Shown here: positions 16,394 through 22,989 of the stretch, one piece after another
How the letters are laid out: the number at the start of each line of letters is the position of its first letter
Position numbering within the stretch: position 1 is the stretch's first letter
Assembly (NCBI GenBank): GCA_003676145.1
Contig: NAUB01000028.1
Location: 62,001 to 126,000, forward strand
Length of the DNA: 64,000 nucleotides
Source: a gamma proteobacterium symbiont of Stewartia floridana
GTDB taxonomy: Bacteria; Pseudomonadota; Gammaproteobacteria; Chromatiales; Chromatiaceae
Direction of reading: 5' to 3'
Position numbers and translations under genes: made by a program
The notes under the pieces: generated by a model
What the model was told of the DNA's origin: nothing
What the model saw: the letters and a program-made list of their open reading frames with translations, nothing else
Database searches by the model: none

Positions 16394-17077
16394 CTAGATA
16401 ATTTCGTCGATGGTGGAGGGTGTGCTGTGGAGTGTGGCACTGCCTGAGACGCCATTGAATGCTGCAATTGCCCGGCTGTTGAACTGAGCGTCAAACAGAC
16501 GCCCATCATCCTGCTCTTCTGCCGTACTATTGGATTGATTCTGTTGCGCCATCTCCTCCCGCCGGACGGCACTGATTTCAGCCCGTGCCTGAGATGCCAT
16601 GGCCGCAGCCTGGGCGGCTACCATTCTGTCCTGTGGGGAAGGGTCTGCCGGCGCCAGAGCGGCACGACGCAGGGTCTCTGCCTGGCGGAGTCGCTCTTGT
16701 GGGCTGCCGGAGTAGGAGGCACTGATCGTCACCTCACCACCGACCGCATATCTTCGGCCATCCGGGCCGGTCTGATAGGTGTAGCTGCCACCGGAGACCA
16801 TGCCGGCTCCGGCAGCGCGGTGAGCTGTTTCATGGGCTCTCACCTGCCGGTCACGCTGCTGCAGCTCTCTGACCTGGGCCTGCTCTTCCCGGGTGAGTTC
16901 GCTGCTCTGGGTGGTCTCCCTGACCGGTCTCTGAGTCTCGTTCTGTTTGCTTTCCGCAGGGGCGGCAGTCTCGCCAGACCCCATGAGAGGGGGCTGTTCA
17001 CGACTCTCGGCCGGTACCCTTCCCGTTAGCTGGGATTGGCTGCCAAGCATCGAAATTCTGCCGATTGAGAGGTCCAT
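16394..17077 (-). CDS. SprA-related putative metalloprotease
   Basis: A 227-residue protein with a low-complexity Gln/Glu/Thr-rich N-terminus. It then has VRAHETAHRAAGAGMVSGGSYTY, an HExxH zinc-protease motif near residue 100, followed by GPDGRRYAVGGEVTIS. This is the signature of the SprA-related family, putative metalloproteases described in many gammaproteobacteria with unknown substrates. No signal peptide is obvious. It is convergent with rimI. Confidence 0.82.
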   Translation of the reverse strand: MDLSIGRISMLGSQSQLTGRVPAESREQPPLMGSGETAAPAESKQNETQRPVRETTQSSELTREEQAQVRELQQRDRQVRAHETAHRAAGAGMVSGGSYTYQTGPDGRRYAVGGEVTISASYSGSPQERLRQAETLRRAALAPADPSPQDRMVAAQAAAMASQARAEISAVRREEMAQQNQSNSTAEEQDDGRLFDAQFNSRAIAAFNGVSGSATLHSTPSTIDEII

Positions 17078-17549: not shown

Positions 17550-18449
17550 TCAGGCCGTCAGGCTCTCCTTTACGGAGGGTTGCTGACTCGCCATCATCCT
17601 GGATTGAGCTCTGACCAGTCTGGACATGGCATTGATGTCCCGATCGGAGAGAGAGAAAGCGGAATCCACCCAGTGATCGGCAATATCGTTGAGCTCCTGC
17701 TTCTCCAACGGCATCACCCGGTTACGCATATTCAAAACCGCTTTACGGGTGATATTCGATTTTTTAAGACGTCGGATAAACTGACGTAAGGCTTCATCAA
17801 GCCTGTCCTTTTCAGCAATCATATCGACAATGCCCATCTCATAGAGCTGCTCTGCAGTGTAGCCTTCCGCGTTGACGATCATCTTCTCGACCATTGCCGG
17901 AGCAACACGACGAGAGAGGAATGAATAGGCTCCCATACCGGGGAACATATTGAACACAACTTCCGGGAACTTAAACTCACTGCCTTCCACGGCAATGATG
18001 TAATCACTGGAGAGCGCTGCCTCGAAACCGGCGCCCAGGGCCGTGCCGTTCACCAGTGAGATTGTGGTGACATCCTTGATGCCCAGATTGCTGTAGTTAC
18101 TATAAAGTACATCGATACTCAGACGGGCGTAGCGCGTTAAGGTCTCCCGGTCGTTGTTTTTGATGCAGTCGACAAAAAAGGCAAGATCACCACCCAGGTT
18201 GAATACGTCGGCTACATCGGATGTAAAGATCAGGTAATCTACCGGCTGATGAGCCCGCTTATTCATACTGAATTGGTTGGTTAATCTTTTCTGAAAAGAG
18301 TCGATATCCCTAAGAAGTTGGTGTGAAAAACAAGGAATTTCGCCTGGATCCATAGCAAAAAATTGAGCCTTAATATCTTCCTGATAGCTTATGTTCAGCG
18401 TTTTATAGCCGTGTTCAATTATTTCGATTGTCTGAGTAGGTGCAAGCAT
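17550..18449 (-). CDS. rpfF: DSF synthase RpfF (crotonase family)
   Basis: A 299-residue crotonase-fold protein that should make a diffusible signal factor, a cis-2-unsaturated fatty acid, from acyl-ACP. It has FNLGGDLAFF near residue 83, the oxyanion region NGTALGAGFEAALS and SEFKFPEVVFNMFPGMGAYSFLSRR. The two glutamates fall at residues 143 and 163, matching the catalytic pair Glu141/Glu161 known in Xanthomonas RpfF, which is 289 residues. An AAGGAG ribosome site lies close before ATG 18449. The rpfC-like sensor gene is divergent. A general enoyl-CoA hydratase is a less likely alternative. Confidence 0.88.
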   Translation of the reverse strand: MLAPTQTIEIIEHGYKTLNISYQEDIKAQFFAMDPGEIPCFSHQLLRDIDSFQKRLTNQFSMNKRAHQPVDYLIFTSDVADVFNLGGDLAFFVDCIKNNDRETLTRYARLSIDVLYSNYSNLGIKDVTTISLVNGTALGAGFEAALSSDYIIAVEGSEFKFPEVVFNMFPGMGAYSFLSRRVAPAMVEKMIVNAEGYTAEQLYEMGIVDMIAEKDRLDEALRQFIRRLKKSNITRKAVLNMRNRVMPLEKQELNDIADHWVDSAFSLSDRDINAMSRLVRAQSRMMASQQPSVKESLTA

Positions 18450-18741
18450 GATGATATTCTCCTTACTTGTGAATCCACTGAAATAACTGCCATACTGTTG
18501 TGGGCAACTAACAATAACACAAGGATTTCACGACACTTAACTTAGTAATTAGTGATATTTGAATGTGAGTCATCCCAGGTTGTTACTTAATCGTAAACCA
18601 GTGGTGGAGGTTATCAATGCGGGTGTTCAGATAATTTGACGTGCGTTAGCTTATGAGTGGATTTTTTAAAAGGGACGATTATGCAATGACTTCAGGAATT
18701 CTCATTCGTCAAGCAACCAAGCGGATTTCGAGTATCAATCT

Positions 18742-21294
18742 ATGGCTGGCATAACAAGAAAGCAGGTTTTTTCACTTCCTAAACCCGATTTCATCTGCAA
18801 AGGTTTGTCGGAGGAAGCGCTGCTTGAATATGAGCAGGCGTTGATTCGGGTGCTCTTCACAGCCTGTGTGGTTGTCTATTTCCTGATCCATAAATTTATC
18901 GATGCTGAGCCCGGGTTGTACAATACGGCTTTCTATCTGGCGTCTGTCTACCTGTTGTTCTCAATAGGCGTCGTATTCTCATTTATTTTCTATAAAGAAG
19001 AATCAAAGATAAGAAAATCGATCACCATGCTGGGTGATCATGGTGCAACCTGTTTGGCCATGTTCCGGGCAGGCGAGGCCGGTGCACCGCTCTTCACCGT
19101 CATACTCTGGATCACGGTAGGCTATGGTGCCCGATACGGTATGAAGTATCTCTACCTGGGGATGCTGTTCTCTGTATTGGGGCTGTTGATACTGATCAAT
19201 ACGAGTGAGTTCTGGTTGCAGCATCCCATCATCGGCTATGGGATGATTGTTACAAATATCATTATTTCAGGTTTCGTTTCCCGTCTGTTGATGCAGTTGT
19301 CGGTCGCAAAGGCAAAAGCGGAACAGGCTGATGAGGCGAAGGGACGATTTCTCGCCAACATGAGTCATGAGATGAGAACCCCGCTGTCAGGCATCATCGG
19401 GATTTCAAATCTGCTGCAGAAAGAGAAACTGCCGAAAAGCGCCAGTGCGTCAGTCATGACGATCAATCAATCCGCCAACCATCTGTTGCAATTGATCGAT
19501 GATATCCTCAATTTCTCCAGAATTGAGTCGGGAATACTTCATGTAAACAAAGCGCCATTTGACGTGTACGAAGCGATTCACACCGTCAGTGATACGTTGA
19601 TGCCGGTGGCCAAGGACAAGGGGCTCGGTTTTCATGTGTTTATCTCAACCGATGTGCCTGTCAATCTGATTGGAGATGCCAACCGACTGAAGCAGATATT
19701 GATCAATCTTTGCGGTAATGCGATCAAGTTTACAAAACATGGATATGTCGAGATAAAAGTCAACGCGCTCTCCGTGGATGAACGGGAAGCTTTCCTGAGA
19801 TTTGAGATTATCGATACAGGCATCGGCATACCCAGCAAGGCGTTGCCCCATGTTTTTGATCGATTCAATCAGGTCGATGATTCCATCACCCGTCAATATG
19901 GTGGTTCCGGTCTTGGTACGACGATATCCAAAGAGCTGGTTGAACTGATGAGCGGGCAGATTCATGTGCAGAGTGATTTTGGTAAAGGCAGTCGTTTCTA
20001 TTTCGATATTCCGTTGCCCGTCGTGGACACTCCGGTCAAGCAGGAGTTCTCCGACATAAAATGTCTGATCTACGCGGAAAATGAATCCCTGACAAAGCGA
20101 ATCGAACATTTCACCTCACGTTGGGGTATGAATGTATTGTCCACATCGGATCTGCACAACATCTGTCCACTACTGGTGGAGAATGAGTTTGAGGGCAGTG
20201 GATTACCAATTCTGCTGGTGGATGGTTTGTCAGTCGAAGGTGAGCTTGGGGATTTTCTGAAATATGTCAGGTTTGGTGTTTCGCAGGATGTGGATATCGT
20301 TCTGGTCGATCTTCAGGAGCAAAGGTCAAACTACGAAGATGTGGTGACCTCGATCGTAACCGATCTCTCCACACCAAGGCAGCTCTTCAATGCACTTCAT
20401 GCGGTTAACCGAAAAGTCGATTTTCCTTCAGGCATCATCAACATCAGTGAAGCTAAAAAGGAGCACTTCAAAAAACTCAATGTGCTGATAGCGGAAGATT
20501 CCCGTGTAAACAGAATGATACTGGAGGAGATGCTGAAAGCTCATCACATGAATGTGGTTTCCGCCGAGGATGGAGATGAAGCACTGGATTTGTTCGAGCA
20601 GCACGACTTTGATCTGGCCATCGTCGACATGCAGATGCCGAATGTGGGTGGGCTGGATGTGATCAGGGAATACAATGCCATTAACGGCTTATTCCATAAG
20701 ATCCCATTCATTGTGCTTACCGCCAACGTGACGACAAATGCCCGTAAAGAGTGTGAGCGTGCGGGTGCTGCAGCGTATATGAAGAAGCCTGTTGACGAAG
20801 CTGAGTTGCTGAAAGTGATCTACCAATACACAGGATCTGAAGCCGACAAGTTTACTGATAAGCTTTTCATTTCCACCGGTAGCGGTGACAGCCGAAATAT
20901 CGATGGAGCTGACGACGGAGTTTTGAACCCTCAGGTGCTTGATAAGCTAAAGCGCCTTGGCTCAAAAGAGGGTGTCTTCGAGGCATTCATCACCAGCTAT
21001 CTGAGTGACCTGAGCACGTCGCTGGAACTGATACAGCAAGCGATTGACGCTAACGATTACAATCGCTATCACGATGAGTCTCACGCAATCAAGGGAGCTT
21101 CGGCAAACATCGGCGCCAACGAAGTCTTCACTATCGCCAAAAAAACCAATGACGATTCCAAAAAAGAGTTCGATCAATTCGGAAAAGAGCGCTATCAGGA
21201 GCTGGTAAATGTCACCTCAAGAGTGGAGAGGGCTCTCAGAGAAGTTCTAGTCAAACACAATTCCTCAGATGCCGAGAGCATTCTAAAGCAGTAA
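18742..21294 (+). CDS. rpfC: RpfC-like hybrid histidine kinase (DSF sensor)
   Basis: An 850-residue hybrid sensor kinase. Five or so membrane helices span residues 35-185 and include the [13 protein letters not shown] loop seen in RpfC-type sensors. HisKA carries the H-box [15 protein letters not shown] with His209. A HATPase domain with DTGIGIP and [14 protein letters not shown] comes next, then a degenerate receiver-like stretch, a REC domain with Asp629 in AIVDMQMP, and an Hpt domain with His781 in SHAIKGASA. In Xanthomonas RpfC binds DSF and signals to RpfG. No rpfG is adjacent here. It is divergent from rpfF across 292 bp. Confidence 0.85.
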
Positions 21295-21402: not shown

Positions 21403-22989
21403 ATGGCTGATAGCAATTTATCCAATGAAATCAACAAGAGACGTACGTTTGCTATCATATCGCACCCGGATGCCGGTAAGACCACGCTAACTGAAAAACT
21501 GCTGCTTTTCGGCGGTGCGATTCAGATGGCTGGCACGGTAAAAGGACGCAAGGCCGCCCGCCATGCCACCTCCGACTGGATGGAGATGGAGAAAGAGCGT
21601 GGGATCTCGGTCACCTCATCGGTGATGCAGTTTCCCTTCGGTGAAGAGATTGTCAATCTGCTCGATACCCCAGGCCATGAGGACTTCTCAGAGGACACCT
21701 ATCGTACCCTGACAGCGGTGGATTCCGCTCTGATGGTGATCGACGTGGCAAAAGGCGTGGAAGCACGCACCATCAAGCTGATGGAGGTCTGCCGACTGCG
21801 TGATACGCCGATTCTGACCTTTGTCAACAAACTCGACCGTGAGGGACGGGATCCTCTGGAGATACTCGACGAGATCGAGGAGGTACTGAAGATCAAATGC
21901 GCGCCGGTCTCCTGGCCGATCGGCATGGGAAAACGTCTCAAGGGGGTCTATGACCTGCGTACGGATACGACGCACCTGTTCAGTGCCACCCACGGGGGCA
22001 AGATTCAGGTTGGTGAGGTGATTCAGGGTATCGACAGTCCCAAGCTGGATGAGCTGATCGGTCACCAGGCTGAGGAGCTGCGTGAAGAGATCGAGCTGGT
22101 GCGCGGGGCAAGCCATGAACTCGATCTGGAAGCGTATGCCAAGGGTGAGCTGACACCGGTGTTTTTTGGTTCGGCAATCAATAACTTCGGGGTCAGAGAG
22201 CTGCTTGAGGCCTTTGTCGAGTATGCCCCGGGCCCCTTGTCCCGCAATACCCAACAGCGTCTGGTGGAGCCGGCGGAGAAAAAATTCAGCGGCTTCGTGT
22301 TTAAGATTCAGGCCAATATGGACCCGCAACACCGGGACAGGGTCGCCTTTCTGCGGGTCTGTTCAGGCTCTTACCGCAAAGGCATGAAGATGCGTCATGT
22401 CAGGCTCGGCAAGACCGTGCAGATCAGCAATGCGATCACCTTTCAGGCCGATGAGCGACGCCATGTGGAGGAGGCCTGGCCGGGCGATATCATCGGCCTG
22501 CACAACCATGGGACGATCCAGATCGGTGATACCTTCACCGAAGGCGAAGAGCTGAAATATGAAGGTATTCCCTACTTCGCGCCGGAACTCTTTCGCCGGG
22601 TGGTATTGAAGGATCCCCTCAAACAGAAGGCCCTGCTGAAAGGGGTATTGCAACTCTGTGAGGAGGGGGCAACCCAGGTTTTCCGTCCGCTGAAAAACAA
22701 CGATCTGATCCTTGGTGCGGTAGGTGTACTGCAGTTTGATGTGGCTGTCGAACGGCTCAAACACGAGTACAAGGTCGAAGCGATCGTCGAGGCGGTGAAT
22801 GTGGCCACCACCCGATGGATCGAGTGCGACGATGAGAAGATGCTCGAACAGTTCAAGCAGAAGAACCACGACAACCTGGCGTTGGACGGGGATGAGCAGC
22901 TGGTCTATCTGGCACCCACCCGGGTCAATCTGGATCTGGCCACAGAGCGTTGGCCGGAGGTGAGATTCATGTCGACCCGGGAGCTTTGA
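21403..22989 (+). CDS. prfC: Peptide chain release factor 3
   Basis: A 528-residue translational GTPase that recycles RF1/RF2 from the ribosome after termination. The G1 motif [16 protein letters not shown] starts near residue 20. The RF3 signature [25 protein letters not shown], the [17 protein letters not shown]3 region and [10 protein letters not shown] (G4) are all intact. Length matches E. coli RF3. It is followed 17 bp later by an inverted-repeat element. Confidence 0.97.

Follow-up and report, generated by a model that had tools for sequence, protein, structure and literature searches.

The Rpf system of Xanthomonas campestris comprises RpfF, with catalytic residues Glu141 and Glu161 (PMC9864630), the membrane sensor RpfC, with HisKA, HATPase, receiver (REC) and Hpt domains, and RpfG, a REC-HD-GYP protein; its rpfF and rpfC are convergent, and clustering of rpfG with both is a trait of the xanthomonad systems. 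Here we consider a counterpart of this system in a 64 000 nt stretch of DNA, the window, from a gammaproteobacterial symbiont of Stewartia floridana (contig NAUB01000028.1, positions 62 001 to 126 000). The window carries rpfF and an rpfC-type gene; we call the product of the latter RpfC-A. Both catalytic glutamates, the domain layout of the sensor and an RpfG-type protein in the genome are shared with X. campestris. Unlike in X. campestris, rpfF and rpfC are head to head, rpfG is unlinked, the genome has two RpfCs, RpfF has Ala for Gly138, and Asp17 and Ser18 of the sensor's signal-sensing hook are replaced. In the reading that we favor, if with modest confidence, RpfF and RpfC-A form a signaling unit whose phosphorelay would end in trans on the unlinked RpfG.

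The rpf clusters of Stenotrophomonas maltophilia include a linked rpfG. They resemble our pair in having fixed RpfF/RpfC combinations (rpf-1 and rpf-2) and differ from it in that each strain has one cluster, with variants differing mainly at the N-termini; rpf-2 strains make the diffusible signal factor (DSF) only after detecting it (PMC4517397, PMC4504480). With the RpfF-RpfR systems of Burkholderia and Cronobacter our locus shares the RpfF fold; unlike RpfC-A, the receptor there is described as a soluble PAS-GGDEF-EAL protein and no kinase (PMC4504480). A 2015 review lists rpfF-rpfG-rpfC clusters in Methylophaga, Leptospirillum, Thiobacillus and Methylobacillus (PMC4504480), RpfC/RpfG genes were reported for a sulfur-oxidizing gammaproteobacterium (PMC4136832), and for Leptospirillum an rpfFCG cluster was reported along with DSF-family compounds in cultures (PMC8357829). 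Since such clusters have been published for other genera, DSF signaling outside the model groups is not new. An earlier note on this stretch, made from its letters alone, had suggested fatty-acid quorum sensing outside the xanthomonads and burkholderias: the RpfF/RpfC pair is real, but a system of this kind had been described before. No paper on a head-to-head rpfF/rpfC pair with unlinked rpfG was found among those listed by our searches. The gene arrangement and the paired residue changes set the locus apart within a kind of system that is known.

The RpfF/RpfC pair of the window

The gene rpfF (17550..18449, minus strand) encodes a DSF-family synthase of 299 aa with a crotonase fold. A 292 bp intergenic region (18450..18741) separates it from the divergent gene of RpfC-A, a hybrid histidine kinase of 850 aa (18742..21294, plus strand). 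The open reading frames (ORFs) agree with the earlier note in these positions and in the orientation of the genes; also, the gene that follows rpfC is indeed prfC (start at 21403), not rpfG.

The assignment of RpfF rests on profiles, structures and trees. The protein scored 313.7 bits with NCBIfam PRK08788 (cut-off 177); with the narrow RpfF equivalog NF053515 it reached 212.7 bits, below the cut-off of 550, as expected for a distant family member. In a PDB sequence search the top four matches were RpfF/DSF-synthase entries (E-values 1.2e-48 to 2.2e-48), followed by a crotonase at 1e-14. In a fold search with the AlphaFold model (mean predicted local distance difference test score 84.5), ranks 1–12 were all RpfF/DfsA chains (3e-24 to 4e-20), with 5fus and 6dgn, RpfFs of the Burkholderia/Cronobacter kind, among the top matches here as in the sequence search; ordinary crotonases appeared from 3e-14, ten orders weaker than the best RpfF-type chain. 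Both catalytic glutamates are present, as had been noted, two positions higher than in Xanthomonas: Glu143 (18021..18023, minus strand; within GFEAA) corresponds to Glu141 and is conserved in 95 of the 96 RpfFs aligned (the remaining row has an X), and Glu163 (17961..17963, minus strand; within FPEV) corresponds to Glu161 and is Glu in all 96.

In RpfC-A we saw, on the plus strand and all above Pfam cut-offs, HisKA with the phospho-acceptor His209 (19336..19533), HATPase_c (19672..20019), REC with Asp629 (20482..20820) and Hpt with His781 (20989..21147). A hydrophobic stretch precedes HisKA, and the membrane part was judged from sequence and homology; this is the RpfC layout that had been proposed. 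The solved sequence closest to the receiver is the RpfC REC domain 3m6m_D, which was solved with RpfF (1.6e-21; next match 3e-17). The His/Asp/His relay residues are intact in all 11 aligned window-type kinases, that of the window included.

A first, quick tree with 84 rows (81 RpfF-type and 3 outgroup rows with long branches, from 99 collected; 15 RpfFs, mostly alphaproteobacterial by title, were omitted) split the RpfFs from the three enoyl-CoA hydratase-type rows with a Shimodaira–Hasegawa-like approximate likelihood ratio (SH-aLRT) support of 100. A more careful tree, with 45 RpfFs and no hydratase outgroup, placed eight RpfFs of the genus in one clade with those of a Thiotrichales locus (L121) and Sedimenticola (99/99; support 92 in the quick tree). 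The RpfC tree, made by the quick method from 80 chosen rows and with a program warning of long branches meeting, joined RpfC-A to the RpfCs of L121 and Sedimenticola (SH-aLRT 99) and split off an outgroup of three hybrid kinases of the same genome, BarA among them, also on long branches (99). Window-type kinases absent from this tree are those of G008 (cut), G009 (split) and G021; their N-terminal parts were read for the residue counts given below. Hence RpfF falls apart from ordinary enoyl-CoA hydratases, and the kinase falls among rpfF-linked RpfCs, away from the genome's own BarA; the opposite groupings had been named in advance as fatal to the proposal.

As both trees join the same relatives, RpfF and RpfC-A appear to share one history. 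The rpfF-rpfC-rpfG clusters of L121 and Sedimenticola (L122, L123 and L125), whose proteins are the closest relatives of both window proteins in our trees, have in common with the window pair Ala140 in RpfF and an altered sensor hook; unlike the window, they include rpfG, and their rpfC is convergent with rpfF. The ratio of nonsynonymous to synonymous substitution rates (dN/dS) was 0.05–0.07 for rpfF, against three close species, and 0.06–0.08 for rpfC, against two, so both genes are kept by selection. Taken together, the two genes very probably constitute an RpfF/RpfC system.

RpfG and a second RpfC on another contig

The earlier note considered the output partner unknown and called for a search of the genome for HD-GYP proteins with receivers. 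The search gave nine matches, all of which were read; none lies on the window contig (C6), in line with the absence of rpfG beside the pair. One of the nine is an RpfG orthologue of 352 aa (G000:C24:177782-178837), with REC and HD models above the Pfam cut-offs and HD-GYP motifs readable in its sequence, so that a candidate partner is at hand after all, and the idea of a genome devoid of RpfG was rejected. This protein is 52–53% identical to rpfF-adjacent RpfGs of four other genomes (the next candidate of the same genome, 34%); its identity to RpfG from L121 and from three Sedimenticola is 52–57%. The next REC-HD-GYP protein (L005, contig C10) adjoins a hybrid kinase of its own. No second RpfF was found in the genome, where the sole other match was weak and within a 768-aa frame.

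Beside RpfG is a 639-aa relative of RpfC (pseudo-RpfC; L060:5864-7783 on C24, minus strand), whose gene overlaps rpfG; convergent with pseudo-RpfC is the gene of a second RpfC, RpfC-B, which is complete with 841 aa. The Pfam scan gave no HisKA or HATPase match in pseudo-RpfC. In all 11 aligned copies from the genus its receiver Asp is replaced by Asn, and its Hpt His by Gln (8 copies) or Gly (3); both residues are kept in the homologue from G024, a genome of a related genus in which a stretch of some 9 kb holds rpfF, rpfC, this homologue and rpfG. Pseudo-RpfC is reminiscent of Xanthomonas RpfH, an input-domain-like protein according to PMC4504480, but has remnants of receiver and Hpt. The Hpt domain of RpfC-B was missed by Pfam, yet its His is kept. 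Two further kinases of this genome, of 702–723 aa, with an RpfC-type membrane input and no complete Hpt, were seen on contigs C24 and C32 (L231:1761-3932 and L232:1635-3743).

By homology, RpfF would make a cis-2-unsaturated fatty acid. At low cell density RpfC-A may restrain RpfF via its receiver; signal binding near the first membrane helix of RpfC-A would then start a phosphorelay through His209, Asp629 and His781. The relay would most likely end in trans on the sole RpfG orthologue found, by homology a cyclic di-GMP (c-di-GMP) phosphodiesterase, of which RpfC-B would be the resident partner sensor. That RpfG might serve as the output of RpfC-A is, on the present analysis, evenly balanced.

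RpfC-A and RpfC-B are 33% identical and occupy different branches: RpfC-B groups with the rpfF- and rpfG-linked RpfCs of G030 and L127 (support 100), apart from the window kinase. Since the synthase and first sensor would come from one Rpf lineage, and the second sensor and the output from others, the circuit would combine more than one. Overall, the genus holds complementary parts of different Rpf systems, which may work as one circuit. This suggests that DSF circuits can be dismantled and reassembled with parts from different lineages.

Distribution of the two loci and gene arrangement

The sister genomes, where the earlier note proposed to look for the pair, do carry it: the full window-type RpfF was present in 14 of 22 genomes of the genus, with the kinase adjoining every time, and all 14 pairs are head to head. 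Among the others, G010 has an RpfF fragment at a contig end, G020 has a different RpfF, and none was found in six. In G020 (L054:211-6916) this other RpfF/RpfC type is arranged tail to tail and adjoins a shortened window-type kinase lacking Hpt. The window-type RpfC of G009 is in two reading frames (L050:2983-5554).

Close relatives of the window's genome have the pair between a gene of a SprA-related family and prfC. In nine sister species with the prfC region read, the SprA-related gene is beside prfC with no rpfFC between (one 91-aa ORF in G007); six of the nine (G001, G003, G004, G007, G009 and G011) carry the pair elsewhere, and three (G005, G006 and G013) are without RpfF of the window type. 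The pair thus occupies two different places in the genus and apparently moved as a unit.

RpfG was found in 21 of the 22 genomes (the G011 copy in two pieces). Among 20 regions around rpfG in the genus, pseudo-RpfC was present, whole or cut, in all 20 and RpfC-B was whole in 16, contig ends falling in the other four. In G012, where no RpfG was found, two other ORFs take the place of rpfFC at the prfC site. Of the two genes flanking rpfG, one was not found in G012 and the other gave a match of only 38%; as these flanks are not found as orthologues either, the lack of RpfG there is uninformative. That neither locus is seen in G012 was therefore dropped as evidence of a functional link. The distribution suggests that the synthase–sensor unit moves as a pair, while a separate sensor–output module persists without a detected synthase, its carriers being possible listeners.

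For a wider comparison we took the best 80 of 574 confirmed named loci; these are the most query-like and not a random sample, so that the counts lean toward close relatives, and the set may miss records close to the genome of the window. Among the 51 named loci with RpfC near RpfF, 48 pairs were tail to tail, two head to head and one in line. The context count leaves aside nine of the 80 loci, for which the set contained no RpfF ORF; 40 of the remaining 71 were flanked by 5 kb or more on each side. These 40 comprised loci with rpfC and rpfG (16), with rpfC and a GGDEF gene, no rpfG (18), with rpfC only (2), with a GGDEF gene only (3) and with neither (1). As 20 of the 40 have rpfC without adjacent rpfG, a missing linked rpfG is frequent, not rare. 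Alphaproteobacterial rpfF-rpfC loci resemble the window in having no adjacent RpfG; they differ from it in linking another type of c-di-GMP enzyme, REC-PAS_4-GGDEF-EAL, with domains tested in L142 only, where this gene follows rpfC (L142:13442-15670). In loci like L142 such a gene replaces rpfG as an alternative c-di-GMP output.

Signal residues, output and rival explanations

Ala140 of the window RpfF (18030..18032, minus strand) is the counterpart of Xanthomonas Gly138; Ala occupies this position in 19 of the 96 aligned RpfFs, the 14 genus rows and L121–L125. Some working crotonases tolerate Ala there, so the change need not alter the chemistry. In Xanthomonas, Gly138 is among the residues possibly coordinating substrate binding and catalysis (PMC9864630).

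On the side of the sensor, Arg15, Asp17, Ser18, Glu19 and Gln22, located before the first membrane helix of X. campestris RpfC, are required for DSF sensing (PMC5391125). The counterpart of this hook in RpfC-A is at residues 25–36 (18814..18849, plus strand), also before the first membrane helix. With residues mapped by the Glu19/Gln22 spacing, only Glu19 (E29) and Gln22 (Q32) have kept counterparts; Leu27 and Leu28 are at the positions of Asp17 and Ser18. In agreement with X. campestris, rpfF-linked kinases such as those of L137, L150 and G024 read R-P-D-S-E-H-E-Q at the hook. We compared 68 readable RpfF/RpfC pairs (three fragments were skipped). Partner kinases of the 19 Ala140 RpfFs had Asp17 in no case, Ser/Thr18 in no case, Glu19 in 19 and Gln22 in 19, whereas those of the 49 Gly-type RpfFs had Asp17 in 41, Ser/Thr18 in 35 and the two together in 33; Glu19 was kept in 48 of them and Gln22 in 30. 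No P-value is given for this association, as it probably reflects one evolutionary event. Both hook residues are also missing from some kinases whose RpfF is of the Gly type and whose RpfG is linked (L127, L130, L138 and L198). Ala140 and the altered hook are hints, at the level of residues, that the signal may have changed; the 19 and 49 pairs offer a natural comparison for the RpfF/RpfC residues setting fatty-acid signal identity. Residues Q496, E504 and I552 of the Xanthomonas RpfC interface were dropped as a test of RpfF repression: they were not found in the literature searched and, varying among canonical RpfCs too, say nothing on the matter.

One could speculate, tentatively, that the clade of the genus, L121 and Sedimenticola, in which loss of both hook residues accompanies a substitution at a conserved active-site glycine of the synthase, makes and recognizes a fatty-acid signal other than the known DSFs. 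The genus would have received the pair without the RpfG belonging to it and connected it to an RpfC-B/RpfG module already present; in that module the sensor hook (Ser18 to Arg) and the Hpt would have changed afterwards. Ser18 of RpfC-B is Arg in 13 of 16 genomes and Ser in G005, G013 and G018; in the Hpt domain, the same three keep a Gly where the other 13 have Asp. In both the RpfC and the RpfG tree these three branch apart from the others, and their genomes are without a window-type RpfF.

Several observations weigh against an output of RpfC-A on the unlinked RpfG. RpfG is present in five of the six genomes in which no RpfF was found (G005, G006, G013, G014 and G018) and so does not depend on the window pair. 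In the RpfG tree, which carried a long-branch warning and whose outgroup did not form one side of a branch, the genome's own RpfG grouped with those of G024, G028 and G049 (93/88), outside the lineage of the pair, and three Sedimenticola RpfGs grouped with G030 and L127 (100/99), L121 being unplaced; hence, the genome seems to have no RpfG from the lineage to which the pair belongs. Selection is uneven as well: rpfG is under stronger constraint (dN/dS 0.015–0.017) than rpfF and rpfC, and rpfC-B and pseudo-RpfC are looser (0.10–0.12). Finally, with the Asp17 and Ser18 positions changed, RpfC-A may not sense canonical DSF.

It is possible, if less probable than the trans relay, that RpfF and RpfC-A are a complete pair whose output is another response regulator, and that RpfG serves only RpfC-B, which would sense something else or the neighbors. 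The conservation of the RpfG/pseudo-RpfC/RpfC-B locus in species where no RpfF was found speaks for this, and so do the divergence of the two RpfCs described above, the other REC-HD-GYP proteins of the genome (L001, L002, L005 and L008, identified by eye) and its 70 matches to the BarA profile. On the other hand, no response regulator was recognized among the rpfFC neighbors read at two sites, where not every neighbor was scanned, and in L121, L122, L123 and L125 the RpfC, which belongs to the same lineage, does have a linked RpfG.

A role in fatty-acid homeostasis is unlikely. RpfF would then be an acyl-ACP thioesterase/dehydratase and RpfC-A would report intracellular free fatty acids, with no cell–cell signal. 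Thioesterase activity releasing unspecific fatty acids was suggested for S. maltophilia RpfFs (PMC4517397), and a gene similar to that of cyclopropane fatty acid synthase lies near rpfF in six of 10 second-site species and in G020 (e.g. L043:4395-5564 and six more loci; Pfam-tested in G019 only, and with the contig of G011 ending beside rpfF). However, RpfF has a dedicated sensor of the RpfC type, with which it appears to share a history. A reading in which an enoyl-CoA hydratase of the ordinary kind happens to adjoin an unrelated hybrid kinase similar to BarA is highly improbable and was rejected: the best NCBIfam match of the kinase is BarA, but at 370 bits against a cut-off of 890, while the trees of both proteins, the structures and the receiver match all point to RpfF and RpfC, and the kinase accompanies the window-type RpfF throughout the 14 genomes.

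Among the neighbors, the SprA-related gene is on the left (16394..17077, minus strand), and prfC, for release factor RF3, is on the right (21403..22989, plus strand); prfC is under purifying selection against close species as well. GC content is 48% in rpfF and 47% in rpfC, versus a mean of 55% for 51 ORFs of the window; rpfG, pseudo-RpfC and rpfC-B are similarly low (46–49%), and so the low GC of the pair is weak evidence for transfer. Promoter-like matches in the rpfF-rpfC intergenic region gave no signal (three sites versus a shuffle mean of 6.2). In an alignment of this intergenic region from the second site (L043–L052), there is a conserved block around GATGGTG...TTTATCTTAGGC, which may be a regulatory element. 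We also saw RpfF relatives (30–39% identity) in 14 plasmid records, from Burkholderia, Methylobacterium, Methylorubrum, Bosea, Sphingomonas and Methylibium.

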